Positions 6,388 to 59,048 of a DNA stretch of 63,626 nt are shown here, piece by piece. How positions within the stretch are numbered: position 1 is the stretch's first letter; the number at the start of each line of letters is the position of its first letter. Source of the stretch: Thiocapsa sp. KS1 (GTDB lineage: Bacteria > Pseudomonadota > Gammaproteobacteria > Chromatiales > Chromatiaceae); NCBI RefSeq assembly GCF_001499735.1, contig NZ_LN848257.1, forward strand, positions 3,989,939-4,053,564, written 5' to 3'. The position numbers and the translations under genes were made by a program. A model generated the notes under the pieces. That model saw nothing but the letters and a program-made list of their open reading frames with translations, did no database searches and was not told the origin of the DNA.

Positions 6388-6464
6388 TGGTGCCCTCGAC
6401 AGGATTTGAACCTGTGACCTACCGCTTAGGAGGCGATCGCTCTATCCAACTGAGCTACGAGGGC
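6388..6464 (-). tRNA. tRNA-Arg (anticodon CCU)
   Basis: On the minus strand a full cloverleaf is visible: acceptor GCCCTCG/CGAGGGC, D arm GCTCAGTTGGATAGAGC, anticodon loop CTCCTAA giving anticodon CCU, T loop TTCAAAT, and an encoded CCA (6388-6390 on the plus strand). It decodes AGG, rare in this GC-rich, CGN-preferring genome. Confidence 0.95.
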
Positions 6465-6603
6465 GTGCTGTCGTGCGCCATCGGCTCTAGTGTAACCCGG
6501 GGAGTGGTCGCAGGCACCGGTCGCAGTCCCTGCGCGCGCCGATTTCGGTTGAAGTCCATTCGAGAAGCGATGATGATTGAATCGTGATCAGGTCTATACG
6601 TCC

Positions 6604-7977
6604 ATGTCCATGACCAACCTGGCCCAGCCCGACGTCACGATCTTCCTCGATTACGCGGGTGTGATCCGCCGGGCGGCGCTGTCGCCTGCGATCCCCGCCG
6701 AGGTATTGGACGCGTGGGTCGGGCGTCCTTGGACCGAAACGGTCGAGTCGTTCGGGAGCGAGAGCCTGCAAAGCCTCGTCGACGACGCGCGGGATCTCGG
6801 CGTTTCGGCCTTCCGCCAGGTGAACCAGATCTTCCCGTCGGGAATGCGGCTGCCCATCGAGTATACCGCGGTGCGTCTGGGCGAGGATGCCGGTCTGATC
6901 GCGATCGGCCGGAGCTTGCAGGCCGTGACCGAACTGCAATCGCGCCTCGTCGAGGCACAGCAGACGATGGAGCGGGATTATTGGAAGCTGCGCGAGGTCG
7001 AGACCCGCTATCGGCTTTTGTTTGGATCCTCCAGCGATGCGGTCATTCTGCTGCGGGTCAACGGTCTCGCAATCCAGGATCTCAACCCGGCCGCATCGCG
7101 TGTCCTCGGCAGACCGACCGGCGGGCCTCGATCCTTGGTCGGCAAAGATTTCGCCGGCGAGCTTCTCGACAGCGAGCGCGACGTCTTTCACGCGATGCTT
7201 CAACGGCTTGCCGATCAGGGCAGTGCACCGGGGATTCTCCTGCATCTCGGCGCACAGCGAGCGGCCTGGATGGTGCGTGCTTCGCGACTCGCGTCGGAGG
7301 CGGGATCGCTGTACCTTCTCCAACTGACCGCCACGCAGGCGGTCTCGACGCGCGAGCAGTCCTCGGACGGGGAGCTCACGGATATTCTGATCGAGCGCTT
7401 GCCCGACGGCTTTGTCGTGACCGACAGAGAGGGTCTGATCCGCTGGGTGAATCCGGCCTTTCTCGACCTCGTTCAAATGCCGAGCTCCAGCGGGGTGATG
7501 CAACAGAGCCTGGGACGTTGGCTCGATCGGCCGGGTGCGGATGTGGGTGTGCTGCTGGCGACGATCGCGCGACTCGGCGTGGTGCGTCCCTTCCTGACCA
7601 GGCTCCGCGGCGAGCTCGGTGCCGAGACGGAGGTCGAGCTCTCGGCGGCCGGCGATCTGGACACCGAGCCGACCTCCATCGGTATCCTGTTTCGGGATGT
7701 CGGCAGGCGCCTGCCTCGGCGCGACAACGACGAGCGTCTCGGCGGACGACTGGCCGCCTTGACCGGGCGGATCGGTAAAGGCCCCTTGCGTGCGCTGGTC
7801 GAAGAGGCGGTCAGCGTGCTCGAGCAGCACTATATCGAAGAGGCATTGGACCTCACGCGCGGCAACCGCACCGCAACCGCCGACCTGCTGGGTTTGAGTC
7901 GTCAGAGTCTCTACGTCAAGCTCAAACGGTACGGGATGGATCAGGACGCAACCACGGATCCAGGACATCGGCCTTAA
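6604..7977 (+). CDS. ppsR1: PpsR/CrtJ-family transcriptional regulator, cysteine-free paralogue
   Basis: A 457-residue PpsR-family protein: an N-terminal PAS-like domain (about 10-120), a Q-linker helix (LVEAQQTMERDYWKLREVETRYRL is its core, shown only in part: VEAQQTMERDYWKL), two further PAS domains (about 135-250 and 260-370) and a C-terminal Fis-type helix-turn-helix with GNRTATADLLGLSRQSLYVK. Family members repress bch, crt and puc genes aerobically by binding TGT-N12-ACA. No cysteine occurs anywhere in the protein; the redox-active Cys of the Rhodobacter PpsR HTH is Tyr here (EQHYIEEAL). It lies 19 bases upstream of the bacteriophytochrome gene, suggesting light rather than thiol control. 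Start is uncertain: ATG 6604, ATG 6610 or TTG 6577. It resembles the PpsR2 encoded at 12734-14158. Confidence 0.9.
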   Translation: MSMTNLAQPDVTIFLDYAGVIRRAALSPAIPAEVLDAWVGRPWTETVESFGSESLQSLVDDARDLGVSAFRQVNQIFPSGMRLPIEYTAVRLGEDAGLIAIGRSLQAVTELQSRLVEAQQTMERDYWKLREVETRYRLLFGSSSDAVILLRVNGLAIQDLNPAASRVLGRPTGGPRSLVGKDFAGELLDSERDVFHAMLQRLADQGSAPGILLHLGAQRAAWMVRASRLASEAGSLYLLQLTATQAVSTREQSSDGELTDILIERLPDGFVVTDREGLIRWVNPAFLDLVQMPSSSGVMQQSLGRWLDRPGADVGVLLATIARLGVVRPFLTRLRGELGAETEVELSAAGDLDTEPTSIGILFRDVGRRLPRRDNDERLGGRLAALTGRIGKGPLRALVEEAVSVLEQHYIEEALDLTRGNRTATADLLGLSRQSLYVKLKRYGMDQDATTDPGHRP

Positions 7978-7996
7978 GCATCGGAGTGCAGCCCAA

Positions 7997-10192
7997 TTGA
8001 CCCCCGATCTTTCCTCCTCGCCGGCGTTCGGGCACGCCGATCTTTCCAATTGCGAGCGCGAGCAGATCCAGCTCGCCGCCTCCATCCAGCCGCACGGCGC
8101 CCTGATCGTCCTGTCGGAGCCGGATCTCGTCGTGATCCAGGCGAGCGAGAATGCGCGCCGTCTGTTGCGGCTCGACAGGGATCCGATCGGGTGTCGGCTC
8201 GACGACCTTGCTCCGGTCCTGGCTGCGCGGGTCCGGCCAAGGCTCGACGATGATTTGGCGCAGATCCCGCTGGTGTTGCGAACCCCGGTGGGTGTGCATC
8301 CGGAACGCGATTTCGATGCCATCGTCCATCGTCCGCCGGCGGGGGGCTTGGTTGTGGAGCTCGAGCCGTCGGGGGCCGCGGTCGATCTGTCCGGGCAGAT
8401 CAATGCCGCGTTGCAGACGATCATCGCCTCGGCTTCGCTGCGCGCCTTGTGCGACGATGCCGCTCGGATCTTCAAGGCGATCGCGGGCTACGATCGGGTC
8501 ATGGTCTATCGGTTCGACGACGAGGGCCACGGGGAGGTCTTTTCCGAGCAACGCGAGCCCGAGCTCGAAGCCTATCTCGGCAATCGTTACCCGGATTCCG
8601 ATATCCCGCAAATCGCGCGTCGGCTCTATGAGCGGAACCGGATCCGCCTCTTGGTCGATGTCGACTACACGCCGGTGCGTCTGCATCCCCGCGCCTCGCC
8701 CCTGACGGGCGAGGATCTGGATATGTCGCTCTGCTCCCTGCGCAGCATGTCGCCGATCCACATGCAGTATTTGAAGAATATGGGCGTCGGGGCGACCCTG
8801 GTGGCATCGCTCTTGGTTGGCGGCAGGCTGTGGGGCCTGATCGCCTGCCATCATTGCGGACCGCGCTTCGTGCAGTACGAGATTCGAGCGGTCTGCGAGC
8901 TTCTGGCCGAGGCGGTCGCGACCCGGATCGCCGCCTTGGAGAGCTTTGTCCAGGCCCAGGCCGAGTTGTCCGTGCGGCGACTGGAGCAGCGGATGGTCGA
9001 GGCGATCTCGCGCGAAGGCGACTGGACATCGGCGCTCTTCGACGATCCGCGAACCCTGCTTCAGACCGTCGATGCGGCGGGTGCGGCCTTGCTCTGCGAC
9101 GGACGAATCCTGACGGCCGGCGAGGTCCCCGGCACCCGTGACCTGCGCGAGATCGGCGCCTGGTTGGATGCCCTGCCTCAGCATGCGGTGATGGCGACCG
9201 CATCGCTGCGGCGCGACGAGCCTCGTCTCGCCCATCTGACCCCGGTGGCGAGCGGTATCCTCGCGGCGCCGGTTTCGAGCTGTACGGGCGAATATCTCAT
9301 CTGGTGTCGTCCGGAGCGTGTACGCACCGTCACCTGGGGCGGCAATCCGTTCAAGCCCGTCCTGAGCGGAGACGACCCGTCGCAGCTCTCGCCGCGGCGT
9401 TCATTCGCACAATGGCATCAGGTCGTCGAGGGGACATCCGATCCCTGGACCGCTGCGAATCTGGCGACTGCCAGACTGATCGGCGAATCCGTCGGGGACG
9501 TCATCCAGCAGTTTCGCTCGGTTCGTGTGCTGATCGCGCAGGCGCAGCTCGCCCAAGTCCGTTCGCAGGTCGGGGTCTCCGAGCAGCCGATCCTCATCGC
9601 CGATGCGGACGGCGTTTTTTTGCTGACGACCGAGTCCTTCGAGCGGCTCCTGCATCCGGATCAAGCGCGTCCCCGATGCCTTGAGGATCTGCTTGCCTTG
9701 TTCTCGGAGCCGACGCAGGACGAGGCGCGCCGCCGTCTCCATGAGCTGACGACACATCGTCGGGCTTGGCGTGGAGAGGTGGACTTGAACACCAGGGATG
9801 TCGGCCTTCGCCCGTTTCTGGTGCGCGCCGATCCCGTTTTTTCCTCGCCGGAACGGGTCTTGGGCTTTGTCCTCTTGCTGACCGATCTGAGCGAGCGCAA
9901 AAGGGCCGAGGATGCCCGGCATCGGGTTCAGGCCGGCCTGCTGGAGCAGCAAAAGATGATGCGCCAGCAGCTGCAATGGAGTGCCAATCCCCTGTACCGC
10001 GAGCTGCTCTCGGCGATTGTCGGGAATGCGCAGCTTGCCGCGCTCGAGGTGACCGACGGCGTCGATCTCGCCCGCGTGCCCGCTTTGGTCGAGGCCGTGC
10101 AATCATCGGTTCAGCGGACCACCCAGCTCCTCGAGCACCTCGCCTGGTATTCGGCTCAGCACACCAAGGCCGATCCCCCCGCCCGCAACTGA
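7997..10192 (+). CDS. bphP: Bacteriophytochrome photoreceptor with PAS/helical non-kinase output (BphP1 type)
   Basis: A 731-residue red/far-red photoreceptor. The PAS domain (about 15-125) holds Cys19 (SNCEREQIQ), the biliverdin attachment site of bacteriophytochromes. The GAF domain (about 140-315) has PDSDIP at 199-204 and chromophore His255 and His285. The PHY domain (about 325-505) has the tongue motif PRRSF (466-470). A second PAS (about 525-635) and a helical C-terminus (about 640-731) follow. No HATPase or H-box catalytic region exists, so it is not a histidine kinase. This order matches BphP1 of photosynthetic Bradyrhizobium/Rhodopseudomonas, which antagonises PpsR2. Start is TTG 7997 with GGAG at 7983-7986. 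No haem oxygenase gene for biliverdin is seen nearby. Confidence 0.93.
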   Translation: MTPDLSSSPAFGHADLSNCEREQIQLAASIQPHGALIVLSEPDLVVIQASENARRLLRLDRDPIGCRLDDLAPVLAARVRPRLDDDLAQIPLVLRTPVGVHPERDFDAIVHRPPAGGLVVELEPSGAAVDLSGQINAALQTIIASASLRALCDDAARIFKAIAGYDRVMVYRFDDEGHGEVFSEQREPELEAYLGNRYPDSDIPQIARRLYERNRIRLLVDVDYTPVRLHPRASPLTGEDLDMSLCSLRSMSPIHMQYLKNMGVGATLVASLLVGGRLWGLIACHHCGPRFVQYEIRAVCELLAEAVATRIAALESFVQAQAELSVRRLEQRMVEAISREGDWTSALFDDPRTLLQTVDAAGAALLCDGRILTAGEVPGTRDLREIGAWLDALPQHAVMATASLRRDEPRLAHLTPVASGILAAPVSSCTGEYLIWCRPERVRTVTWGGNPFKPVLSGDDPSQLSPRRSFAQWHQVVEGTSDPWTAANLATARLIGESVGDVIQQFRSVRVLIAQAQLAQVRSQVGVSEQPILIADADGVFLLTTESFERLLHPDQARPRCLEDLLALFSEPTQDEARRRLHELTTHRRAWRGEVDLNTRDVGLRPFLVRADPVFSSPERVLGFVLLLTDLSERKRAEDARHRVQAGLLEQQKMMRQQLQWSANPLYRELLSAIVGNAQLAALEVTDGVDLARVPALVEAVQSSVQRTTQLLEHLAWYSAQHTKADPPARN

Positions 10193-10202
10193 TACGGCCG
10201 GG

Positions 10203-10469
10203 TCAGGGGCGCCAGCGCAGAGCCAAATCGGCGAGATGCGCGACCAAGGCAAAGGCCAGCCAGAGGCCAATCCAGACCCACCCGGCACCCGTCAGAGCCG
10301 CACGCAAGGCGACTAGCAGGAATGTCCCGGCGAGCAGCAGACCGACCAGATCGCGCGGGGCGACACCTTTTCCGGTCAGGCGGTGGAGAAGCGTCAGAGC
10401 GATCGCCTCGATCAGGACCAGGCCGATGATCAGATCGATCAAGCGTCCGCTTGCGAAGAGCTCGGCCAT
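10203..10469 (-). CDS. Small hydrophobic membrane protein (unknown) downstream of bchP
   Basis: An 88-residue protein with three likely transmembrane helices (about 8-28, 38-58 and 62-82), and charged residues between them. Initiation at ATG 10469 is preceded by AGGAGG-like sequence (revcomp of cgcctcctt, 10475-10483). It is the last gene of the minus-strand set ppsR2-bchG-bchP-orf88, 48 bases after bchP. Its stop is only 10 bases from the end of bphP, so the two operons converge tightly. No catalytic motif is visible. Its position suggests a role in bacteriochlorophyll esterification or pigment-protein assembly at the membrane, but this is inference only. Confidence 0.75.
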   Translation of the reverse strand: MAELFASGRLIDLIIGLVLIEAIALTLLHRLTGKGVAPRDLVGLLLAGTFLLVALRAALTGAGWVWIGLWLAFALVAHLADLALRWRP

Positions 10470-10517: not shown

Positions 10518-11723
10518 TCAGCGTGCCGAGACGAAACCCAAGAGATGCGCCATGTCCTTGAAGAAGACACGCAGATGGGCGGCCGGCTTGGCGCGGACCA
10601 GACGCTTGTTCATGTAGGCATCCCAGGTCAGCGATTGCACGTCCGGGTCCTTGCACATGCTCACGAAACGCTCGCGACGCTTGTCGCTGGAGTACCAAAA
10701 GTACTGCATCATCCCCAGCACCCAGAAGACCTTGCCGTGGGACTTCATGAAGCGGGCCCGCGCGGTCTTGAGCGCGCGCGCATCGCCGGTGGAGAGAAAG
10801 GTGTCGACCGCGTCCCCGGCCAGCCGTCCGCCGACCAGCGCGTAATAGATGCCTTCGCCCGAAGCGGGAGCCACCACACCGGCGGCATCGCCGGCCAGCA
10901 CCAGGTCGCGTCCGTTGTCCCAGCGCTTCAACGGTTTCAACGGGATGGGCGCACCCTCGCGACGCAGGGTCTCGGCGTGTTCCAGCCCGGCGCGGCGACG
11001 CAGCTCGGTGGTCGCGCTCTTGAGCGAGAAGCCCTCGACCGCGGTGCCTACGCCGACGCTGGTCGTGTCGCCGTGCGGGAAGACCCAGCCGTAGAAGTCC
11101 GGGGAGATGTCGCCTTGGTAGTAGACGTCGCAGCGCGTGCCGTCGAAATCGGCCGGGCCGCCGTTGGCCGGGGTGCGCACGATCTCGTGATAGGCGGCGA
11201 CATACTTGATCTTGTCCGCGCCCGGGACGCACTGCTTTCCGACCGCCGAATGGGCTCCGTCGGCGCCGATCACGGCCCGCGCGCGGACCCGCTCGGATTC
11301 GTTGCCGCTGCGCCCGGCGCCCGGTCGATAGCGGATCAGGGCCACACCGTCGGTGTCGCGCTCGACCGCCTCGAAGGTGCCGGTGCGCCGCTCGGCTCCG
11401 GCCTGGGCGGCACGCTCGCGCAGCCACTCGTCGAAATGCTCGCGATCCACCATGCCGACATAGCCGCCGTTGATGGGCATGTCCACACGCTGATCGGACG
11501 GGGAGACCATGCGGGCTGAGTTGACCTGGTTGGCCAGCATGGATTCCGGGATATCGAACTCACGCATCGCCTGCGGCGGAATGGCGCCGCCGCAGGGTTT
11601 GATGCGTCCGCCGCGATCGAGCAGAAGGACGCGACGTCCCCGCTTGGCGAGATCGGTTGCGGCGGTCGCACCGGCGGGTCCGCCGCCGATCACCACGACA
11701 TCGAAGGTTTCGAGGTTTGTCAT
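10518..11723 (-). CDS. bchP: Geranylgeranyl diphosphate/geranylgeranyl-bacteriochlorophyll reductase
   Basis: A 401-residue FAD-dependent reductase that saturates three double bonds of the geranylgeranyl tail to give phytol. The N-terminal dinucleotide-binding motif VVVIGGGPAGATAA is followed by PCGGAIPP, characteristic of ChlP/BchP. The central GADGAHSAV and late LAGDAAGVVAPASGEGI flavin motifs are intact. Start ATG 11723 gives the family N-terminus (MTNLETFDVVV); a longer frame upstream lacks support. It lies 96 bases downstream of bchG on the same strand, the order in which the two enzymes act. Confidence 0.95.
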   Translation of the reverse strand: MTNLETFDVVVIGGGPAGATAATDLAKRGRRVLLLDRGGRIKPCGGAIPPQAMREFDIPESMLANQVNSARMVSPSDQRVDMPINGGYVGMVDREHFDEWLRERAAQAGAERRTGTFEAVERDTDGVALIRYRPGAGRSGNESERVRARAVIGADGAHSAVGKQCVPGADKIKYVAAYHEIVRTPANGGPADFDGTRCDVYYQGDISPDFYGWVFPHGDTTSVGVGTAVEGFSLKSATTELRRRAGLEHAETLRREGAPIPLKPLKRWDNGRDLVLAGDAAGVVAPASGEGIYYALVGGRLAGDAVDTFLSTGDARALKTARARFMKSHGKVFWVLGMMQYFWYSSDKRRERFVSMCKDPDVQSLTWDAYMNKRLVRAKPAAHLRVFFKDMAHLLGFVSAR

Positions 11724-11819
11724 TGGATAATGGCCCTGAGCTTGGGGTAAGCCGATGTGTTCATGCGCCCTGCGCAACGGCGCCGGGCAGACGCGATTCG
11801 GCATTCGGTCGGGTCCGGG

Positions 11820-12728
11820 TCACGCGAGAAGCCCGCGCACGGCGAAGGCGCTGATCATCATCCCGGTGACGTAGACGCTGACGCCGAGACCGCTGAACCA
11901 GGTTGCCCGCTCGCGCGGACTTTGCAGGAAGCGAACCATGAGAAGCAGTTGGATCAGCAGGACCACGCCGACGGCGATCCCGTGGGCTGGTTTGTCCCAA
12001 GCGAGCAGCAGCGCGATTACGATCGCCTGAGGCACGGCCATCACGATGCTGGCCAGGCGCGCGGCCCCGTCGACACCGAGCTGAACCGGCAGCGAGCGCA
12101 CGTTCATCTGCTTGTCGCCCTCGATCGCCTTGAAATCGTTGAGCGTCATAATGCCGTGGGCGCCGATGCTGTAGAGCACCGCGAGGGCAAGGATCCGCCA
12201 GTCCGGCATGGCGCCGCCGAGCATGACGGCCGCCCCGGTGACCCAGGCCAGTCCTTCGTAGGAGAAGCCGACCGCAAGGTTGCCCCACCAGCCGTTGCCC
12301 TTGAGTCGAAACGGCGGCGCGCTGTAGGCCCACGCGAGCGCCATGCCGATCAGGGATGCCCCGAAGACCCAGGGGCCGAGCACCCAGGCGAGCAGCAGCG
12401 AGAGCGTGGTCCAGATGAGCGCAAGATAGAGCCCCCAGCGTCCGGGGATACGGCCCGAAGGGATCGGACGATTCGGCTCGTTGATGGCGTCGACATGGCG
12501 GTCGTACCAGTCGTTGACGACCTGGCTCGTTCCGCACATCAGGGGGCCGGCCAGCAGAACGCCCGCGATCAGGAGCCACCACTGTTGCAGGACGGGTGCG
12601 CCTGAGGAGACGACCCCGCACGCGAAGGCCCACATCGGCGGGAACCAGGTGATGGGATGCGACACTTCCAGGATCGCGGGCATGGACGGACGTGCGGACG
12701 CTGCCGCGGGTAATGCGCTTGGATTCAT
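11820..12728 (-). CDS. bchG: Bacteriochlorophyll synthase (bacteriochlorophyllide a prenyltransferase)
   Basis: A 302-residue UbiA-superfamily membrane prenyltransferase that esterifies bacteriochlorophyllide a with geranylgeranyl or phytyl diphosphate. The first Asp-rich motif NDWYDRHVDAINEPNRPIPSG and the second motif NDFKAIEGDKQMNVRSLP are both present, with eight or nine predicted membrane helices. The start is ATG 12728, 5 bases after the ppsR2 stop; the same frame stays open upstream through ppsR2, but that extension has no family match. The ppsR-bchG-bchP order is conserved in purple bacteria, but the PucC-like gene (orf428/bch2) found between bchG and bchP in Rhodobacter is missing. 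Confidence 0.95.
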   Translation of the reverse strand: MNPSALPAAASARPSMPAILEVSHPITWFPPMWAFACGVVSSGAPVLQQWWLLIAGVLLAGPLMCGTSQVVNDWYDRHVDAINEPNRPIPSGRIPGRWGLYLALIWTTLSLLLAWVLGPWVFGASLIGMALAWAYSAPPFRLKGNGWWGNLAVGFSYEGLAWVTGAAVMLGGAMPDWRILALAVLYSIGAHGIMTLNDFKAIEGDKQMNVRSLPVQLGVDGAARLASIVMAVPQAIVIALLLAWDKPAHGIAVGVVLLIQLLLMVRFLQSPRERATWFSGLGVSVYVTGMMISAFAVRGLLA

Positions 12729-12733
12729 GCCGC

Positions 12734-14158
12734 TCACTTGTCGTCTGGCGCCGATGGCTCGGCGGCTTGGTCGGTAATGCCGTAACGGTCGATTTTGACG
12801 TATAGGCTTTGGCGGCTCAACCCCAGCAGCTCGGCGGCGGAGGCGCGGTTGTCGCCGGTCAGCTTCAGCGCCGCCTCGATGCAGAGCCGCTCGATGGTGT
12901 CGGTCGATTCGCGCACCAGCTCTTTGAGCGGGACCCGTCCGACGCGGTCGGTGAGCTGATCGAGCCACCGCGGCTGCTCGGGGCTCGTGGGCTGCTCGGC
13001 GTTGAGTCGACGGCCGACATCGCGGATGAAGAAGCCGAAATAGGGCCGCTCGCCGTTGCGGACCGCGGCGGCCGAGATCTCGATATCCGTCGTCGAGCCG
13101 TACTCGCCGCGCAAGGTGGTTGCGAAGAGCCGGACCGTGTCGTGCTGACGCAGGTTGGCCATGAGGACGTTGAGATCGACGCCCGGACGTCCGAGCCAAC
13201 GATCGAGCGACTCGCCGCGCGCCTGCTGCTCGGCCGCGATCTCGGTCAGGGCCAGGAAGGTATTGTTCGCACTCAGGACCCGCCCGTCCGCGTCCGTGAT
13301 GACGACACAATCCGGGGCATTCTCCAGGACGCGCAGATAGCGCGCCCGGTTCTCCGGCAAGGTGGAGGTGGAGGTCTCGGCGAGTATCGGCGACAGCCGA
13401 ACCAAGAGGAAAGAGAGGTTCTCCTGGCGCAGCAGCGACGCGGACACCAGGAACTCCTGCATGCCGTCGGCGAGCTTGGCCCGCACGTCGTCCGCCCGGC
13501 CGGCGGCACGTACGCCGGCCAAGAGGCCGTTGATCGCCTGTGTACCCTCGGTGTCGAAACCTTCCGGGAAGGGGCGGCCGATGACCCGCGTCGGCGACTC
13601 GCCGAGGAGCTGACCGGCAGCCGGGTTTGCCTCCACCACCCTCTGGGTCGGCGCGTCGATGATGAGGATCGCCTCGGAGACCATGCGAAACAACAGCCGA
13701 TAACGCGTCTCGACTTGGCGGAACCGCCAATAATCGCGCTCCAATGCCTGCTGTGCATCGACGAGCTGCTGTTGCAAGGCGGCCATGCTTTGGAGATTGC
13801 GCCCCAGCGCCACCACACTGCTTCCGAGACGCAGGGCTCGGTATTGGATCGGGATATCGGTGCCGCGGATGGTTGGATGGCTGACTTGCCGCCACCGGGT
13901 GACCTGGCGGCCGGATGCCTCTTTGAGCAATGCTTCGAGGTTCGCACGGCTCTCGGGCAGGACGGTGGTCAGCCAGGGTTGTCCGATCCAGTCGCTGCTG
14001 AGCTCGCTCGACAGATCCTCGCTGCCGAACGCGATGTCGCAGACGATCCCCGCCTGGTCGACCACGACGGCAATGTCGGTTGCGCCTTCTACCAGCGCCG
14101 CCGCCGTTTCGGCATCGAGGACGCCGAACGATTCCTTCGGGGCTCTGAACGGACTCAC
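12734..14158 (-). CDS. ppsR2: PpsR/CrtJ aerobic/redox repressor of photosynthesis genes
   Basis: A 474-residue PpsR: N-terminal PAS-like domain, Q-linker (AQQALERDYWRFRQVETRYR core), PAS1 (about 155-265), PAS2 (about 275-385) and a C-terminal Fis-type HTH with NRASAAELLGLSRQSLYVK. Three cysteines are visible: about Cys40, Cys284 and Cys426. Cys426 sits in the HTH (RLCIEAALKL) where Rhodobacter PpsR has its redox-responsive Cys. The chosen start is GTG 14158, with GGAGGG ten bases upstream and a length close to Rhodobacter PpsR (464). Upstream ATGs (14182, 14278) lack a ribosome site. It is first gene of ppsR2-bchG-bchP, so the regulator is co-transcribed with pigment genes. Confidence 0.93.
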   Translation of the reverse strand: MSPFRAPKESFGVLDAETAAALVEGATDIAVVVDQAGIVCDIAFGSEDLSSELSSDWIGQPWLTTVLPESRANLEALLKEASGRQVTRWRQVSHPTIRGTDIPIQYRALRLGSSVVALGRNLQSMAALQQQLVDAQQALERDYWRFRQVETRYRLLFRMVSEAILIIDAPTQRVVEANPAAGQLLGESPTRVIGRPFPEGFDTEGTQAINGLLAGVRAAGRADDVRAKLADGMQEFLVSASLLRQENLSFLLVRLSPILAETSTSTLPENRARYLRVLENAPDCVVITDADGRVLSANNTFLALTEIAAEQQARGESLDRWLGRPGVDLNVLMANLRQHDTVRLFATTLRGEYGSTTDIEISAAAVRNGERPYFGFFIRDVGRRLNAEQPTSPEQPRWLDQLTDRVGRVPLKELVRESTDTIERLCIEAALKLTGDNRASAAELLGLSRQSLYVKIDRYGITDQAAEPSAPDDK

Positions 14159-14332
14159 GGCGACCAGACCCTCCAATGCCATGGGGCGCGCCGGGTCGAC
14201 CCCGCCTCGGGGTCGGCAGCGGCCGGCTCGCCGGAACGATCCTGACGGGTCGCCATGCCCTTCGGCATCCGGCACCATTGCGCCAGGCGACTTCGCGCGG
14301 ATCTCTCGATATGCCTTCCGGCTCTCGCCTGT

Positions 14333-14594: not shown

Positions 14595-14651
14595 TGTCAA
14601 GTCAGGTTTACGTAAAGTTTGGTTGACGCATCCCTGAAAGCGGACTAGATT
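14595..14651 (+). promoter_or_regulatory. bchF operon promoter with adjacent near-PpsR site and palindrome
   Basis: The -35 TTGACG (14623-14628, 5/6) is 17 bases from -10 TAGATT (14646-14651, 4/6), about 50 bases upstream of the bchF start. Just upstream lies TGT-N12-ACG (14595-14612), one base off a PpsR box, overlapping the perfect palindrome TTTACGTAAA (14608-14617). PpsR or another dimeric regulator may bind here. Confidence 0.6.
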
Positions 14652-14663
14652 CGTCTTATGTAG

Positions 14664-16496
<1,833 letters not shown>

Positions 16497-18096: not shown

Positions 18097-22715
<4,619 letters not shown>

Positions 22716-35122: not shown

Positions 35123-35166
35123 TGTCTATTGTACATGACACTAGTAAGTGTCAACTAATATTTACA
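35123..35166. promoter_or_regulatory. Tandem PpsR/CrtJ operator between crtD and crtE
   Basis: Two perfect TGT-N12-ACA boxes: TGTCTATTGTACATGACA (35123-35140) and TGTCAACTAATATTTACA (35149-35166), centres 26 bases apart. The second has the favoured TGTCA half. A TGACAC-N6-GTGTCA palindrome (35136-35153) bridges them. The AT-rich spacer lies between divergent starts (crtD 35072, crtE 35209), so one operator can control both carotenoid operons. Confidence 0.85.
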
Positions 35167-42360: not shown

Positions 42361-43040
42361 TCGTTACCCTGCCTGCTCGGCGCAAGCCACCGTCCGCACC
42401 GACGCGGTTCGGGCGGTGGCGCGCATCCTCGGCTCTCTTCGCGCCACGTCGGCAGACCAGGCGCTTGTTGCCCCGCCGAGACCTGGTTTCGGTGCCTTCG
42501 ACGATCGTTTCCATCCGTTTGACCGGCTCCGTCCGGCATCTTGCACCCCCCTTTTTTCGTCGCTGTCCTTCCGGCAACCGCGGGCTCCCGCGCGGGCGAT
42601 GCGCTTGTAATTGTCCGCGCGCAGTTGGGTGCGAAACAGGTGTAAATGTAGATTGACATCTACGTCAGTCAAGCTAGACTGACACCTAAATCCAGCCACC
42701 CAGCAAGGCTTTCGTACCGGACCCGTGAGACCCGACCTGATCATCATTCGAACGGACGCTCCGAGCTTCTTGCCGGTTGCGTCGCTCAAGATACCCTCCG
42801 AGGTCGAGGTCCACGGGCGAGGTGCTTTGCCGAGAGCTGGCGAGTTGTGTCTGTCGAGCGAGGTGTCTGCTCCGCTCGACAGGAGTTGCCCGTCCCTGAT
42901 TCGGGGGCGATTGAGTCGAGAGGTTGCTCGGACGATCCGGACAGCTTCTCCGTCGTGGTCGGTTGGTTCACGACGAAACCCCCGCCGCACGGGTTCGGTG
43001 CGGCGTCACTTAGGTTCATCTCCTACTGGAGGATCGATCA
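42361..43040. other. bchZ-puf intergenic region and puf leader
   Basis: 680 bases without a supported gene. No PufQ homologue is seen here, unlike Rhodobacter, where pufQ occupies this place. The stretch holds the puf promoter/PpsR operator (42641-42683) and then about 350 bases of untranslated leader before GGAGG of pufB1 (43028-43032). Confidence 0.65.
42641..42683 (+). promoter_or_regulatory. puf promoter overlapped by a PpsR box and an inverted repeat
   Basis: A perfect -35 TTGACA (42653-42658) is 16 bases from -10 TAGACT (42675-42680). The PpsR box TGTAAATGTAGATTGACA (42641-42658) ends in the -35 itself, so binding would occlude RNA polymerase. A second dyad, GTCAGTC-N6-GACTGAC (42664-42683), covers the -10 and would suit a different dimeric regulator. 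Confidence 0.85.
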
Positions 43041-43184
43041 ATGGCTGAAAACACCAGCATGTCCGGCATGACCGAAGAAGAAGCGAAAGAGTTCCACGGG
43101 ATCTTCGTGCAGAGCATGACCACGTTCTTCGGAATCGTGATCGTTGCGCACATCCTGGCTTGGCTCTGGCGCCCCTGGCTGTAA
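43041..43184 (+). CDS. pufB1: LH1 antenna beta polypeptide 1
   Basis: A 47-residue LH1 beta chain. The N-terminal cytoplasmic part [13 protein letters not shown] is followed by a single membrane helix with the bacteriochlorophyll-ligating His in [18 protein letters not shown] at 43028-43032 precedes ATG 43041. Nearly identical to beta 3 (47173-47316), but more distant from beta 2. Confidence 0.95.
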
Positions 43185-43264
43185 CGGCACCCAATTCAGC
43201 GCTGGCGCCCGAGGGTGCCGGTCGCACGGCAATCTAACTCGTCCTAATTCGAGGAGAAACGCAT

Positions 43265-43477
43265 ATGTTCTCGACCGAAAGCTTGTGGAAAATCTGGCTG
43301 ATCATGGATCCGCGTCGCATCCTGGTCGCCCTGTTTGCATTCCTGATCGTTCTGGGTCTGGCCATTCACATGATCCTGCTCAGCACCGCAGACTTCAACT
43401 GGCTCGAAGACGGCGTTCCCGCCAAGTCCGCAGTCAGTCAGATGCAAGTGACGCCGGTTGTGCCGCAAAGGCAATAG
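43265..43477 (+). CDS. pufA1: LH1 antenna alpha polypeptide 1
   Basis: A 70-residue LH1 alpha chain with [20 protein letters not shown], the helix His in [16 protein letters not shown], and a 23-residue periplasmic tail. The STADFNWL segment has no deletion, unlike the Ca2+-binding 915-nm LH1 of Thermochromatium tepidum, so an ordinary B880-type core antenna is inferred. Confidence 0.95.
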
Positions 43478-43549
43478 CGTCCTTTACGGGGGTGGCAGGG
43501 GAGGCTGGACTTGGTGGTCAGACCCCACCTACCGCCGACAGTGCTAAGA

Positions 43550-43574
43550 GGAGGCAGCCGATTCGGATGCCTCC
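43550..43574 (+). promoter_or_regulatory. pufA1-pufL intercistronic stem-loop
   Basis: Outer stem GGAGGCA/TGCCTCC and inner stem CCGA/TCGG lie between pufA1 and pufL. In Rhodobacter, hairpins at this place protect pufBA mRNA from 3' exonucleases and raise antenna over reaction centre; the same role is inferred. Confidence 0.7.
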
Positions 43575-43592
43575 CCAGCAGAGGATTTTACG

Positions 43593-44429
43593 ATGGCCAT
43601 GCTCAGTTTTGAGAAAAAATACCGCGTCCGTGGCGGGACGCTGATAGGGGGCGACCTATTCGACTTCTGGGTGGGGCCGTTTTATGTCGGCTTCTTCGGG
43701 GTCGCCACGCTCTTTTTCGCCATATTAGGTACGCTCTTGATCGTCTGGGGTGCCACCCTGGGCCCGAATCCCGAGCTTCAAACATTCAATCTCTGGCAGA
43801 TCAGCATCGCTCCGCCTGATCTGAGCTACGGGCTCGGAATGGCTCCGCTTGATCAGGGCGGGCTCTGGCAGTTTATTACCATCTGCGCGATCGGGGCCTT
43901 CGTCTCTTGGGCGCTTCGCGAGGTGGAGATTGCCCGCAAGCTCGGGATCGGCTTCCATGTTCCCTTCGCATTCGCCTTCGCCATTGGTGCCTATATCACC
44001 CTCGTGGTGATTCGTCCCATCTTGATGGGCGCATGGGGTCATGGCTTCCCGTACGGGATTCTGAGTCATCTGGACTGGGTCTCGAACGTCGGCTACCAGT
44101 ACCTGCACTTCCACTACAACCCGGCCCATATGCTCGGGATTACCTTCTTCTTCACCACATGTCTGGCGCTGGCAATGCACGGCTCCCTGATCCTGTCGGT
44201 GACGAATCCCGCGAAGGGCGAGCCGGTCAAGACCGGCGAGCATGAAAATACCTTCTTCCGGGACCTGATCGGTTACTCCGTCGGCGCACTTGGTATCCAT
44301 CGCCTGGGCTTGTTCCTGGCGCTGAGCGCAGTCTTCTGGAGCGCCGTCTGTATCGTGATCAGCGGACCCTTCTGGACGCGCGGCTGGCCGGAATGGTGGA
44401 ACTGGTGGCTCGAGCTTCCGCTCTGGTAG
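43593..44429 (+). CDS. pufL: Photosynthetic reaction centre L subunit
   Basis: A 278-residue, five-helix L chain that holds half of the special pair, accessory bacteriochlorophyll, bacteriopheophytin and QB. The N-terminus [20 protein letters not shown] and the helix D/E region with [17 protein letters not shown] (special-pair/accessory His) and non-haem iron His in [11 protein letters not shown] and LGIHRLGLF are conserved. It begins 18 bases after the stem-loop at 43550-43574 and lies 15 bases before pufM. Confidence 0.97.
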
Positions 44430-44444
44430 GTCTAGGAGACAACA

Positions 44445-45416
44445 ATGGCTGAATATCAGAACATTTTTACAAGCGTGCAGGTGCGCTCTCCGGCTTATCC
44501 CGGAACGCCCATGCCGAAAGGCAATCTGCCGCGGATCGGCAAGCCGATCTTCTCCTACTGGGCCGGCAAGATCGGTGACGCTCAGATCGGTCCCATCTAC
44601 CTCGGTTTCACCGGTGTTGCATCCCTGCTCTTCGGCTTCATCGCCATCGAGATCATCGGCTTCAACATGGCGGCTTCCGTGAATTGGAGCCCGATCGAGT
44701 TTCTGAAGAACTTCTTCTGGCTGGCGCTCGAGCCGCCGCCGCCGTCGTATGGCCTCAGTATCCCTCCTTTGGGTGACGGTGGCTGGTGGTTGATCGCCGG
44801 GTTCTTTCTGACGACGTCGATCATTCTTTGGTGGATTCGGACCTACAAGCGGGCAGCTGACCTGGGTTTGAGTCAGTGGCTGTCTTGGGCGTTCGCAGCG
44901 GCGATCTTCTTCTATCTGAGTCTGGGCTTCATTCGCCCGGTTCTGATGGGCAGCTGGGCGGAAGCCGTGCCTTTCGGCATCTTCCCTCACCTTGACTGGA
45001 CGGCGGCCTTCTCGATTCGGTACGGGAACCTCTATTACAACCCGTTCCACATGCTGTCGATTGCCTTCCTTTACGGCTCGGCTCTGCTGTTTGCCATGCA
45101 TGGTGCGACCATCCTCGCCGTTAGCCGGTTCGGTGGCGACCGTGAGATCGACCAGATTACCGATCGCGGCACGGCAGCCGAGCGTGCAGCACTCTTCTGG
45201 CGCTGGACGATGGGCTTCAATGCCACGATGGAGTCGATCCATCGCTGGGCTTGGTGGTTCGCGGTATTGACCGTCATCACTGCCGGTATCGGGATCCTCC
45301 TGACCGGGACCGTGGTCGACAACTGGTATCTGTGGGCCGTGAAGCATGGTGTCGCTCCTGTCTATCCGCTTGAGGGCACTACGGACCCGACGCTGTTGCA
45401 GGGGGTTTCGCAATGA
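44445..45416 (+). CDS. pufM: Photosynthetic reaction centre M subunit
   Basis: A 323-residue, five-helix M chain pairing with L. The N-terminus [10 protein letters not shown], the special-pair region [22 protein letters not shown] and the iron ligand [12 protein letters not shown] are present. The stop overlaps the pufC start (ATGA). Order pufLMC with a cytochrome agrees with purple sulfur bacteria. Confidence 0.97.
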
Positions 45417-46492
45417 AGATGGTTAAGTACACATCGATCCCGCTGGCTGCCGTCGTCGCTTCGGTCTTTGTTGCGGGCTGCGAGGCGCCGCCCCCGGAGA
45501 CCGTACAGTTGGGCTACCGCGGTTTGGCCATGGAGCACGTCCAGAACCCCGGGGACTTGGCTCGCAACTACAAGGCGAACCAACCGCCCGCGGTCATCCC
45601 GGCGGCGCCCCCCGGCGGGCCGAAGGTCTCCGAGGTCTATCAGAACGTACAGGTTCTGAGCGATCTCACCGTTGCGGACTTCACCCGTCTGATGGTGGCC
45701 GTAACGACTTGGGTCGCTCCGGAGCAGGGCTGCAACTATTGCCACGTTCCCGGAAACTGGGCGTCGGACGACATCTATACGAAGGTCGTGTCGCGTCGGA
45801 TGTTCCAGATGACGCAGCAAACGAATTCGGCATGGAAAGACCATGTCGCGCAAACGGGTGTGACCTGCTATACGTGCCATCGCGGCAAGCCGGTTCCCGA
45901 ATATGTTTGGACGACCGATCCGGGTCCGGACCTGCCTTCGGGCGTGTCGCCGACGGGGCAGAACATTGCGTCTTCGACGGTCGCCTATGCGTCGCTGCCG
46001 TTTGATCCTTTCACTCCGTTTCTCGATCAGGCAAACGAGATTCGTGTGATCGGCAATGCGGCTTTGCCGAGCGGTAACCTGGCGTCGATCAAGCAGGCGG
46101 AATGGACCTACGGTCTGATGATGCAGATCTCCGACGCACTCGGGGTCAACTGCACCTTCTGCCACAACAGTCGCTCCTTCTTTGCTTGGGATCAGAGCAC
46201 CCCGCAGCGCACGACCGCCTGGTATGCGATTCGGCATGTGCGTGAGATCAACCAGGAATACATCTGGCCGTTGAACGAGGTGTTGCCCGCGACGCGTAAG
46301 GGTCCGCTGGGCGATCCCTACCGCGTGAGCTGCGTGACCTGTCACCAAGGGGCCTACAAGCCGCTTTACGGTGCGCAGATGCTAAAGGACTATCCCGCAC
46401 TCGCAGGGCCCACCCTGATTGCGGCGCCCGCGGAAGCGGCTCCGGTCGAGCCGGCGGCTCCGGCTCCGGCAGCGCAACCGAAGCAAATGTAG
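45413..46492 (+). CDS. pufC: Reaction centre tetrahaem cytochrome c subunit
   Basis: A 359-residue lipoprotein that re-reduces the photo-oxidised special pair. A lipobox FVAGC (Cys23) after a hydrophobic leader predicts a lipid anchor on the periplasmic face. Four haem sites are seen in order: CNYCH, CYTCH, CTFCH and CVTCH. The C-terminus is Ala/Pro-rich. ATGA overlap with pufM. A GGCCGG/CCGGCC hairpin (46500-46516) follows the stop. Confidence 0.96.
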
Positions 46493-46499
46493 CAAAGGA

Positions 46500-46516
46500 G
46501 GCCGGCTCGGCCGGCC
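46500..46516 (+). promoter_or_regulatory. Stem-loop after pufC
   Basis: GGCCGG-CTCGG-CCGGCC, 8 bases after the pufC stop, between the reaction-centre genes and the second antenna pair. It probably sets relative mRNA stability of LMC against B2A2B3A3. Confidence 0.5.
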
Positions 46517-46674
46517 GCAGGGCAGGGACGCCTAAAGCAGCGCCGGATTCCGGTTCGGCGCACGTCGGGTGAGATGATTCAGCAGGCCGTACCCAACCGA
46601 TTCCTGCCGTAAGGTAGCTCGGGCGGGGCAGACCATCCGAAGGGATGGGTTCCGGCCGAGGTGAGGAGATATCG

Positions 46675-46821
46675 ATGGCTGACCAGATGAGTATGACAAC
46701 GGGTCTGACAGACAACGAGGCAGAGGAGTTTCACGGCATCTTCGTGTCCAGCTTTGTCGCGTTTACGTCGATCGTGGTCGTCGCGCACATTCTGGTTTGG
46801 CTGTGGCGCCCTTGGCTCTGA
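46675..46821 (+). CDS. pufB2: LH1 antenna beta polypeptide 2
   Basis: A 48-residue LH1 beta chain, more divergent than beta 1 and 3: the membrane helix begins [20 protein letters not shown] instead of [20 protein letters not shown]. The ligating His and WRPWL end are kept. GAGGAG at 46661-46666 precedes ATG 46675. Confidence 0.93.
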
Positions 46822-46904
46822 TCGGGCAGCGGGGCGGCGATTGATGGCCCACCGGGCGTTTGCTGATCCAGCAACACCCATCTGTTAGTCACTGGAGTAC
46901 GCAG

Positions 46905-47039
46905 ATGCATAAAATTTGGCAGATCTTCGATCCGCGCAGAACACTCGTAGGCTTGTTCGGATTCCTGCTCGTCCTTGGTTTGTTGATCCACTTCATCCTG
47001 CTCAGCAGTCCGGGCTTCAACTGGCTCGGGGGCGTTTAG
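46905..47039 (+). CDS. pufA2: LH1 antenna alpha polypeptide 2, short form
   Basis: A 44-residue alpha chain that begins [20 protein letters not shown] and has the helix His in [10 protein letters not shown]. It ends at FNWLGGV, lacking the 23-26-residue periplasmic tail of alpha 1 and alpha 3, and has SSPGFNW in place of STADFNW. Stop TAG 47037 is not near any sign of a frameshift. Confidence 0.93.
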
Positions 47040-47172
47040 TCTGGTGTTCGCATCGGGGGCGTCCGCGGTGTCCGGCAGGGCGCCCGGACGATCCGATCCA
47101 CTGTGGTCCCCGCCGCGGGGAAGATCGCGGTAACGGCCAACTGGCCAAAACATGACAAGTGAGGGTAATTCC

Positions 47173-47316
47173 ATGGCTGAAGCAAAAAGCATGACCGGTC
47201 TGACCGAAGAAGAGGCGAAGGAGTTTCACGGCATCTTCGTGCAGAGCATGACCGGGTTCTTCGGCGTCGTTATCGTCGCCCACATCCTTGCCTGGCTCTG
47301 GCGCCCCTGGCTGTAG
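47173..47316 (+). CDS. pufB3: LH1 antenna beta polypeptide 3
   Basis: A 47-residue beta chain almost identical to beta 1 ([20 protein letters not shown] against [20 protein letters not shown]). The His ligand and WRPWL end are conserved. GAGGG at 47161-47165 precedes ATG 47173. The similarity suggests recent duplication or gene conversion with pufB1. Confidence 0.94.
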
Positions 47317-47401
47317 TCGAGCGCAGTAGACTCGTGATGGATTTCGACGGGAGGAGCAGCGATCTGCACCGTCCCGCTTTACGTCTTTAGGAGATAAACT
47401 C

Positions 47402-47605
47402 ATGCATAAAATTTGGCAGATCTTCGATCCGCGCAGAACGCTGGTTGCTTTGTTCGGTTTCTTGTTGGTGCTCGGGCTGTTGATTCACTTTATCCTGCTC
47501 AGCACGGCCGACTTCAACTGGCTGTCCGACGGCACGCCTGCCGCGGGTAAGGCTGCTGCCGTGACGCCTGCCGCGCAGATGGCTCCCCTGCCTGCCGGCC
47601 GTTAA
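47402..47605 (+). CDS. pufA3: LH1 antenna alpha polypeptide 3
   Basis: A 67-residue alpha chain whose first 35 residues match alpha 2 but for V-G to V-A near position 16, while the [11 protein letters not shown] segment and long Ala/Pro tail resemble alpha 1. Such a mosaic suggests exchange among copies. GGAG at 47390-47393 precedes ATG 47402. Confidence 0.94.
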
Positions 47606-48118: not shown

Positions 48119-49420
48119 ATGACGGCAGCCGATCTCAAAGGGTTTTTCGCCGATGCGGACACCCTGGATCCCGACGCCTATCTGCGTCTCGACTATTATC
48201 TTGAGTGCCGCGGAGATCCGCGCGTCGCCGTTGCACACTTCTGCTCGGAGCAGTCGACCGCCCAGTGGCGCCGCGTCGGCTCGGGCGAAGACCTGCGCGG
48301 GGAGTTCGGCGCGAAGGTTGTCCATCTTCGCGTCGATGCGACACTGCCGGACTTCAGCTACGGGTTGACGGCGCCGGGCGAGGGCGAGATTCATGCGTGT
48401 CGCGTCCGTATCGCCCATCCGCATCGCAATTTCGGTCCCCGAATTCCGAATCTCCTGAGCGCCGTCTGTGGCGAGGGCACCTTCTTCTCGCCCGGCGCCC
48501 CGGTCGTCAAGCTGCTCGATATCCATTTTCCCGACGCTTACCTGCGTTGCTTCGACGGGCCGCGCTACGGTGTCGAGGGTTTCCGCGACCTGCTCGGGGT
48601 CTACGATCGCCCGATCTTCTTCGGCGTCATCAAGCCCAATATTGGATTGGCGCCGGAGGATATGGCCGAGCTTGGTCTCCAGGGGTGGCTCGGTGGGCTG
48701 GACGTCGCCAAAGACGACGAGATGCTTTGCGATACCGATTGGTGTAGCCTCGAGCGGCGCTCCGCGCTCCTGGGTGCGGCCCGTCGGAGAGCGGAAGCGG
48801 AGACCGGCGTTCCGAAGATCTACCTGGCCAACGTGACGGACGAGGTGGGTCGTTTGGCCGAGCTGCACGATCTGGCGGTCGGCAACGGCGCCAATGCCCT
48901 GCTCGTGAACGCCCTTCCGGTTGGCTTGAGCGCCGTGCGGATGTTGGCGCAGCACACTCAAGTGCCCTTGGTGGCGCATTTCCCGATGATTGCGGCCTTG
49001 AGCCGGTTGGAGCGTTTCGGCATCAGCTCCTTGGTGATGACCAAGTTGCAGCGCCTTGCCGGATTCGACGTTATCATCATGCCCGGGTTCGGCGGTCGAA
49101 TGTTCATGTCGGATGCCGAGGTTTGCCGCAACGCCGCCGCGTGCCTCGAGCCGATGGGCGGACTTCGGCCGAGTCTGCCGGTGCCCGGCGGAAGCGATTG
49201 GGCCGGGACACTGAAGCTGGTCCACGACAAGCTCGGGACGCGCGATTTCGGCTTCGTGCCGGGGCGCGGTGTTTTCGGGCACCCGATGGGGCCGCGCGGC
49301 GGCGCAGCAAGCATCCGTCAGGCGTGGGACGCCGTCGATGCAGGCATCCCGATCGAGGATCACGCCCATCATCACGCCGAGCTGAGCGCTGCGATCGGAG
49401 CCTTCGGCCGCAACGCCTGA
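48119..49420 (+). CDS. RubisCO-like protein (form IV)
   Basis: A 433-residue RubisCO-fold protein that is not a CO2-fixing enzyme. The active-site Lys172 ([10 protein letters not shown]) and KDDE (198-201, including the carbamylated Lys and Mg ligands) are kept, but Lys of KPK is Asn here and the loop 6 GKxEG of true RubisCO is absent (MPGFGGRM). This is the pattern of form IV proteins; a photosynthesis-linked subtype (IV-Photo), as in Chlorobium and Allochromatium, is the best guess. Such proteins act in sulfur-metabolite isomerisations or oxidative stress in known cases. Flanked by yjbQ (3 bases upstream) and idi. Confidence 0.9.
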
Positions 49421-58646: not shown

Positions 58647-59048
58647 TCAAACGACCCCGGGAGCACCCTGCATCTGTGGCCCAGGCGCGTTTTGGTGGAT
58701 CAGCAGACGCCAGCCGTCGGCTCCTTGCCTGAAGATGTTGGTCCCGTAGATCGCAGGCCCCGGCTGACCGGCGGGGCCGCCTTGGGCGCGCTCCTCGATC
58801 AGGTGGATCACGGTATTGCCGCATTCGATCCAGGCGAGGTGTCGCACCTGGAGATCGAAGGCGCCGGCCTGCTCGAAGATGGACCGCCAAAGCTCCAGAA
58901 CCTCCCGCCCCATCACGAGCGGTGTCATGGGCAGGAGGCAGGCGATGCTCTCCGAGTCCTCCCACACCTGCGTCATGGCCGCGGCGTCGCCCGCCTCCAG
59001 CGCATCGTAGAAGGCGTCCTCGGCATCCTGAGGTGTCTCGAAGGGCAT
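58647..59048 (-). CDS. SnoaL/NTF2-like (SgcJ-type) protein
   Basis: A 133-residue protein of the NTF2/SnoaL fold. The opening FETPQDAEDAFYDALEAGD and the WEDSESIACLLPM segment match the SgcJ/DUF4440 group. Function unknown; these folds bind small ligands or catalyse. ATG 59048 is preceded by AGGA; ATG 59111 has none. It lies 28 bases upstream of mtaB on the same strand. Confidence 0.75.
   Translation of the reverse strand: MPFETPQDAEDAFYDALEAGDAAAMTQVWEDSESIACLLPMTPLVMGREVLELWRSIFEQAGAFDLQVRHLAWIECGNTVIHLIEERAQGGPAGQPGPAIYGTNIFRQGADGWRLLIHQNAPGPQMQGAPGVV

Follow-up and report, generated by a model that had tools for sequence, protein, structure and literature searches.

A BphP1/PpsR2-type phytochrome and regulator pair in the photosynthesis genes of Thiocapsa sp. 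KS1, with pocket-less sister phytochromes in the Chromatiaceae

A stretch of 63,626 nucleotides from the gammaproteobacterium Thiocapsa sp. KS1 (contig NZ_LN848257.1, positions 3,989,939 to 4,053,564; hereafter the window) carries a ppsR gene (ppsR-A) followed directly by a bacteriophytochrome gene (bphP). Comparative analysis identifies the phytochrome as a BphP1 orthologue, and the pair is very probably the BphP1/PpsR2 light switch of anoxygenic phototrophs. The preliminary description of this DNA inferred such a switch in a gammaproteobacterium. PMC5362033, citing Kovacs 2005 and Jaubert 2004, already states that in Bradyrhizobium, Rhodopseudomonas palustris and Thiocapsa roseopersicina, the last a member of the same genus, ppsR2 precedes the gene of a bacteriophytochrome-like BphP, whose presumed role is a light-dependent disruption of binding by PpsR2; gene order and presumed role are thus already on record. 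What is new here is the presence of BphP1 orthologues with an open reading frame (ORF) and without a bilin pocket in seven genomes of three genera of the same family.

The features of the pair, in window coordinates, are as follows.

6604..7977, forward strand: ppsR-A, the PpsR2 orthologue (ATG at 6604, stop at 7977; 457 amino acids, no cysteine), with an N domain, Q-helix, PAS1, PAS2 and a Fis-type helix-turn-helix (HTH)
7978..7996, forward strand: spacer of 19 bases, with GGAG before the TTG start
7997..10192, forward strand: bphP, the BphP1 orthologue (TTG at 7997, stop at 10192; 731 amino acids), with a PAS-GAF-PHY photosensory core, then PAS, then a two-helix output (HOS)
8051..8053, forward strand: codon of Cys19, the predicted biliverdin attachment site by homology
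9989..10165, forward strand: HOS helices, approximately residues 665-723, including NAQLAALE (677-684), placed by AlphaFold2 helices and alignment

The preliminary description, made from the letters alone, had reported a cysteine-free PpsR gene and, 19 bases later, a phytochrome with Cys19, PDSDIP and a PAS-plus-helix C-terminus without a kinase domain, and each of these was borne out by motifs, domain searches and the structure model. In Pfam and NCBIfam scans PpsR-A is a PpsR/CrtJ equivalog with a Fis-type HTH (TIGR02040, PpsR-CrtJ, 431 bits; cut-off 275). BphP matched PAS_2, GAF, PHY and PAS_4 in Pfam, which found neither HisKA nor HATPase, placing the protein outside histidine-kinase type 1; the NCBIfam BphP model scored 360 bits, far under its cut-off of 1040. 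The motifs of the phytochrome are Cys19, P199-D-S-D-I-P204 and P466-R-R-S-F470. Judged from their spacing, the two genes probably form one transcript.

In searches of the Protein Data Bank, the top sequence matches of the phytochrome were RpBphP1 of R. palustris (4gw9, 795 bits; 5oy5, 700 bits). Engineered near-infrared proteins derived from RpBphP1, miRFP entries among them, came next (374-379 bits), and after these the next BphP at 327 bits. RpBphP1 also came first by fold (TM-score 0.61 normalised by the query), at a root-mean-square deviation of 18, which indicates that domain placement differs between the model and RpBphP1. The AlphaFold2 model (mean predicted local distance difference test score, pLDDT, 77) has helices after the last PAS at 632-658 (linker), 665-686 and 694-723, and N677, A678, Q679, A681, A682 and E684 of the first output helix are invariant in 35 rows, namely 34 proteins picked from the 80 loci introduced below and the window BphP. 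Similarly, 19 pocket, tongue and GAF positions were compared in 91 pocket-bearing rows, in which some genomes are represented twice: 18 are identical in all 91, and Cys19 is cysteine in 90 with one gap. Among named records T. roseopersicina DSM 217 is closest, with 94% identity over the whole phytochrome and 89% in PpsR-A; metagenome-assembled genomes (MAGs) of Thiocapsa reach 92-93% in the phytochrome and T. marina 5811 reaches 91%. The ratio of nonsynonymous to synonymous substitution rates (dN/dS) of the window BphP against three other Thiocapsa is 0.075-0.100, and that of HOS is 0.124 in one domain-split pair.

Phylogeny agrees with these matches. In a tree of photosensory modules (75 rows, from which 22 of the 80 loci, being near-duplicates or short pieces, and several family loci repeating named ones were omitted), 68 BphP1-type rows stand apart from seven other family phytochromes with a Shimodaira-Hasegawa-like approximate likelihood ratio test (SH-aLRT) support of 100, and the window protein does not cluster with the sampled kinase types. 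Pfam, run on the seven as positive controls, found HisKA and HATPase in five, an HWE kinase in one and GGDEF in one. The Chromatiaceae branch first in this tree, with 51 rows of other groups nested above them (92). Both here and in a full-length tree of 23 rows, BphP1 of Rhodopseudomonas and Bradyrhizobium and the window BphP form one clade outside the kinase types. In the full-length tree the window BphP falls in a group of 11 (100/100), whose sister is a group of eight alpha- and betaproteobacterial rows (100/99); the branch joining the two has 98/96. Recent transfer from Rhodopseudomonas or Bradyrhizobium is unsupported, as their rows lie in the separate group of eight.

The PpsR proteins divide in a corresponding way. 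A tree of 107 rows, omitting the same 22 loci, eight further loci and pieces below 350 amino acids, places clade A (70 rows) and clade B (37 rows) on opposite sides of one branch with SH-aLRT 100. Clade A rows stand beside bphP, or beside bchP where bphP is missing, and clade B rows in the bchG/bchF region. The PpsR2 next to bphP in Rhodopseudomonas and Bradyrhizobium groups with PpsR-A in clade A, and PpsR-B, a second PpsR of the window, falls in clade B. The gene beside bphP had been labelled PpsR1 in the preliminary description; by phylogeny it is the PpsR2 orthologue, and the PpsR1 counterpart is the gene at 12734-14194. The lack of cysteine, true of PpsR-A, is not a defining mark of its clade: the HTH cysteine column of clade A reads Y in 54 rows, C in 9, H in 3, S in 2 and gap in 2, so that a missing HTH cysteine is usual but not universal there, and clade B reads C in 30, S in 6 and A in 1, some of its members, including the sampled Rhodopseudomonas and Bradyrhizobium ones, also being without it. 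Together, the BphP and PpsR trees, the neighbouring genes, the domain architecture and the conserved residues of pocket and output strongly support orthology to the BphP1/PpsR2 pair. As a side observation, two genomes with the pair elsewhere have a further clade-A ppsR next to bchP, with no phytochrome there (L072 in G021 and L074 in G069).

The two genes are closely linked well beyond Thiocapsa. A contig scan gave 433 relatives; in 77 of the best 80, PpsR-A immediately precedes the phytochrome gene on the same strand, with a median gap of 18 bases (at most 50 in 64 of the 77). Two of the other three start less than 600 bases from a contig end, and the third, from Beijerinckia (L163), has only a clade-B PpsR. 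Unlikely labels among the 80 (Myxococcota, Solirubrobacterales, Frankia) possibly reflect misbinned or misnamed sequences. A survey of 210 Chromatiaceae genomes, 75 of which have a PpsR-like match at an E-value of 1e-50 or better, found a BphP1-type gene, judged by identity and coverage in the match table, in 27. Pocket residues are kept in 20 of these 27, and PpsR-A is adjacent in all 20. This linkage, together with the trees, suggests that the pair is an old unit common to alpha-, beta- and gammaproteobacteria and not a speciality of Rhodopseudomonas and Bradyrhizobium. Both genes are missing between coaX and bchP in three of 11 Thiocapsa genomes (G102, G166, G168); G102 retains the adjacent tRNA-Arg (99%), window positions 6465-10207 are unmatched in it, and 175 unaligned bases stand in their place. 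The bphP gene is broken in two genomes, by a frameshift in a Thiocapsa (L069, G123) and by an in-frame stop in a Chromatiaceae MAG (L077, G121); both read as separate pieces and are counted among the 20. The pair lies on the same strand as ppsR-B, bchG and bchP in L154, L206 and L077, as in alpha- and betaproteobacterial loci, and is turned round relative to these genes in Thiocapsa, L104 and L105.

It has been reported that RpBphP1 binds RpPpsR2 in a 2:1 complex after far-red light via its HOS helices, and that wild R. palustris PpsR2 is without the HTH cysteine and PpsR1 is a redox sensor (PMC6899989). QPAS1, consisting of the Q-helix and PAS1 of PpsR2, is described as a binding partner of BphP1 (PMC13058837). 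The Q-helix of PpsR-A (106-130, borders set by hand) is 76% identical to that of R. palustris, 88% to the Bradyrhizobium clade-A protein and 56% to the window's own PpsR-B, and this conservation agrees with a PpsR2-type complex. Given this mechanism, binding partner and identity, the same switch is the best explanation of the Thiocapsa pair. In addition, a haem oxygenase gene, which would supply biliverdin, is present in the genome: a 299-amino-acid ORF about 199 kb before the first base of the window matches PF01126 at 53 bits (cut-off 23), and has no NCBIfam match. The whole genome holds one PHY domain.

The mechanism proposed here takes its spectra, complex, repression, direction of response and redox role of PpsR-B from R. 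palustris and Bradyrhizobium. In the dark, biliverdin-bound BphP would be in the far-red-absorbing state with its HOS helices paired, as in R. palustris, and PpsR-A would repress puf, crt and antenna genes by occupying their tandem TGTN12ACA operators. Far-red light would convert BphP and free the HOS helices, and the dimer would remove PpsR-A from the DNA, allowing photosystem genes to be expressed. PpsR-B, in which the HTH cysteine is kept, may supply redox control.

The operator-like sites of the window include the following.

35123..35166, no strand: tandem TGTN12ACA-N8-TGTN12ACA without mismatch, between divergent crtD and a crtE-like gene
42641..42684, no strand: tandem PpsR-type operator with one mismatch, upstream of the puf genes (antenna genes before pufL)
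14595..14628, no strand: two overlapping PpsR-like sites, weaker candidates, between ppsR-B and bchF (matrix scores 18.0 and 15.1)

With up to two mismatches the window has three tandem sites against 0.30 expected, and none of 100 shuffles scored as high; the third, at 58923, has two mismatches and is not relied on. Genome-wide, seven tandem sites with at most one mismatch compare with two for a backward control pattern. The seven, from which the site matrix was built, lie at crtD/crtE, at puf, at crtI (over the first codons of the listed ORF), at two clusters of antenna genes lying outside the window, one of which has two sites, and at an AraC-type regulator. We read the antenna genes outside the window from their place as LH2-type (light-harvesting complex 2), and NCBIfam gave LH1-type (light-harvesting complex 1) for the two tested, one of them under the cut-off. 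The AraC-type site (L198:4521-4564; contig C1:1889520-1889563) is 60 bases before an AraC-family gene whose FeaR-like match is under the cut-off; by this placement, the gene is a possible, unexpected member of the PpsR regulon.

Several observations weigh against the proposed switch. Single TGTN12ACA sites show no clear enrichment in the window (7 against 4.04 expected, with 14 of 100 shuffles as high), nor does the TGTCN10GACA form with one mismatch (17 against 20.9); no match was found with a 7-base spacer, and there is no strong site before ppsR-A (best score -1.4). The sites found cannot be assigned to PpsR-A in preference to PpsR-B. The clade-B HTH column reads S, not C, in four Rhodopseudomonas/Bradyrhizobium-type loci, so that it is Cys438 of the window protein itself that supports calling PpsR-B a redox regulator. 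Five family genomes (G035, G107, G127, G187, G083) have PpsR-A without BphP1, which argues against strict dependence of PpsR-A on the phytochrome. The BphP model is a single chain and is weak at the tongue (444-455, 470-477) and at 657-663.

Co-evolution likewise runs against an exclusive partnership with PpsR-A. In a mirror-tree analysis of 30 loci, some of them near-duplicates, with BchP and BchG distances removed, the partial correlation of BphP was 0.315 with PpsR-A (5 of 2000 permutations as high) and 0.461 with PpsR-B (0 of 2000), and the analysis failed as proof of PpsR-A specificity. The phytochrome might accordingly antagonise PpsR-B, or both PpsR proteins, rather than PpsR-A alone, and five genomes do combine a BphP1-like gene with a single PpsR of clade-B type. 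All five, however, carry phytochromes that have lost the pocket (five of seven such genomes, against none of the 20 with a pocket), PpsR-A is the upstream neighbour throughout the linked loci described above, and in G132 the two genes lie together some 55 kb away from the ppsR-B cluster. We consider this alternative unlikely, although it is the strongest of those weighed. Less probable still is that PpsR-A is an activator, or regulates another set of genes, with the phytochrome setting activation in place of relief of repression: PpsR1 of Bradyrhizobium, one of its two PpsR proteins, is an activator (PMC10569730, PMC3899966), but its place beside bchG makes it clade-B type, and PpsR2, in whose clade PpsR-A falls, is called a repressor in both model systems (PMC10569730). 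Recent loss of the kinase from a kinase-type phytochrome no longer signalling to PpsR, an idea that could draw on the description of HOS as a distant homologue of kinase DHp domains (PMC6899989), is ruled out for practical purposes by the 75-row tree, where the window BphP lies inside a PpsR-linked clade excluding seven other sampled types, by the near invariance of the HOS stretch across classes and by the low dN/dS values.

The trees lend phylogenetic support to a far-red switch of the BphP1/PpsR2 kind in purple sulfur bacteria. Pairs from Thiocapsa would add to the candidates for far-red optogenetic switches, and would offer a way to test light-quality control of antenna genes in a sulfur phototroph.

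The seven phytochromes that have lost the bilin pocket keep an open frame (696-727 amino acids) and lie beside bchP (loci L099, L181, L182, L083, L084, L066 and L065). Their genomes fall into three genera: g27 (G027, G075, G104), g23 (G070, G122, G101) and g49 (G049). All belong to the BphP1 clade; Asp202 of DIP and PRxSF are gone in seven of seven, and Cys19 in six of seven, a cysteine aligning in G049. Estimated by the Nei-Gojobori method (NG86), dN/dS is 0.097, 0.159 and 0.174 within g27; within g23 it is 0.186 for G070/G122 and 0.283 and 0.285 for G101 against these two. Pocket-bearing control pairs give 0.075-0.197. The estimates cover six pairs in g27 and g23, G049 having no close partner. 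Other members of the same genera (G125, G022, G087) have neither gene at the locus. Proteins of g27 and G049 retain part of the HOS stretch, which those of g23 have lost. In the tree the five degenerate rows form one group (89/93), and a tree with the g27 row outside it is not rejected (approximately unbiased test, p-AU 0.135).

Of the seven genomes, G049 and G101 retain PpsR-A and the other five have lost it. Its presence to absence is thus 20:0 among pocket-bearing and 2:5 among pocket-less genomes (Fisher one-sided 0.00026), a count behind which stand few independent events, because the genomes are related. On these sequences the pocket-less proteins look like functional, light-blind regulators. 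We tentatively propose that a light sensor may have become, perhaps repeatedly, a PpsR co-regulator that no longer depends on light (responding to redox or a ligand, or constitutive) and that acts on PpsR-B in genomes without PpsR-A. R. palustris has bacteriophytochromes that are insensitive to light and belong to other BphP types, reportedly the subject of Vuillet 2007 and Fixen 2014; they act without light sensing and bear on the seven Chromatiaceae proteins lacking the pocket rather than on the window BphP. With the pocket-less sisters, and the pocket-bearing form as the control, the role of a phytochrome without chromophore would become testable within a single family. Our literature search, only part of which came close to either subject and from which subscription journals were mostly absent, turned up neither an experiment on the Thiocapsa pair nor a paper about Chromatiaceae phytochromes without a pocket; the main text of a Thiocapsa bogorovii genome paper contains neither 'ppsR' nor 'phytochrome' (PMC10892978).

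Among the closest known systems, the R. palustris pair shares with that of the window orthologous proteins, the PAS-GAF-PHY-PAS-HOS plan and a ppsR directly before bphP, and its locus (L178) has the same neighbours, bchP, bchG and a second PpsR. The phytochromes are 58% identical, and within PpsR-A identity is only 34% for PAS1 and 16% for the linker that precedes the HTH. In L178 the pair lies on the bchP strand, whereas in Thiocapsa it stands tail to tail with bchP, and bchF is on the other side. In photosynthetic Bradyrhizobium, where the three regulators are likewise in the photosynthesis cluster, the order is BrBphP, ppsR2, cycA, bchP, a major facilitator superfamily (MFS) gene, bchG and ppsR1 (PMC10569730). 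In the window, by contrast, no cycA or MFS gene lies in between and the pair is turned round, and the HTH cysteine of PpsR-B corresponds to S in Bradyrhizobium (L128).

The neighbouring genes are the following.

6388..6464, reverse strand: tRNA-Arg(CCT), which flanks the pair and is retained in one Thiocapsa genome without it
10518..11804, reverse strand: bchP, geranylgeranyl reductase (TIGR02023, 519 bits), the next gene, convergent with bphP
11820..12728, reverse strand: bchG, bacteriochlorophyll synthase, 302 amino acids, named without a family search on the basis of sequence and position next to bchP and ppsR, with the same neighbours in relatives
12734..14194, reverse strand: ppsR-B, the PpsR1 orthologue (TIGR02040, 525 bits; clade B), with Cys438 in the HTH; the start may be 14278
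14701..15213, forward strand: bchF, which opens the bch cluster, its name based on sequence and gene order, with the same neighbours in relatives

Further along the window, family searches confirm bchM (at 22713), puhB, bchE, crtD (NF045637, 725 bits), bchX, bchY, pufL, pufM and pufC; the crtE-like gene adjoining crtD matches polyprenyl synthetase (PF00348, 161 bits), and a crtC match is under its cut-off. Three pufBA-like antenna gene pairs lie in window 43029-47524, one before pufL and two after pufC, and downstream of the puf genes is a ribulose-1,5-bisphosphate carboxylase/oxygenase (RuBisCO)-like protein (window 48119-49420) with its best NCBIfam models below cut-offs. A search of viral contigs with the query patterns gave no match. 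The assembly of Thiocapsa sp. KS1 comprises 10.38 Mb in 43 contigs, against 3.3-6.1 Mb in ten other Thiocapsa genomes; it gave no 16S match, and its 12 antenna matches all lie on contig C1. It is possibly a mixed assembly.

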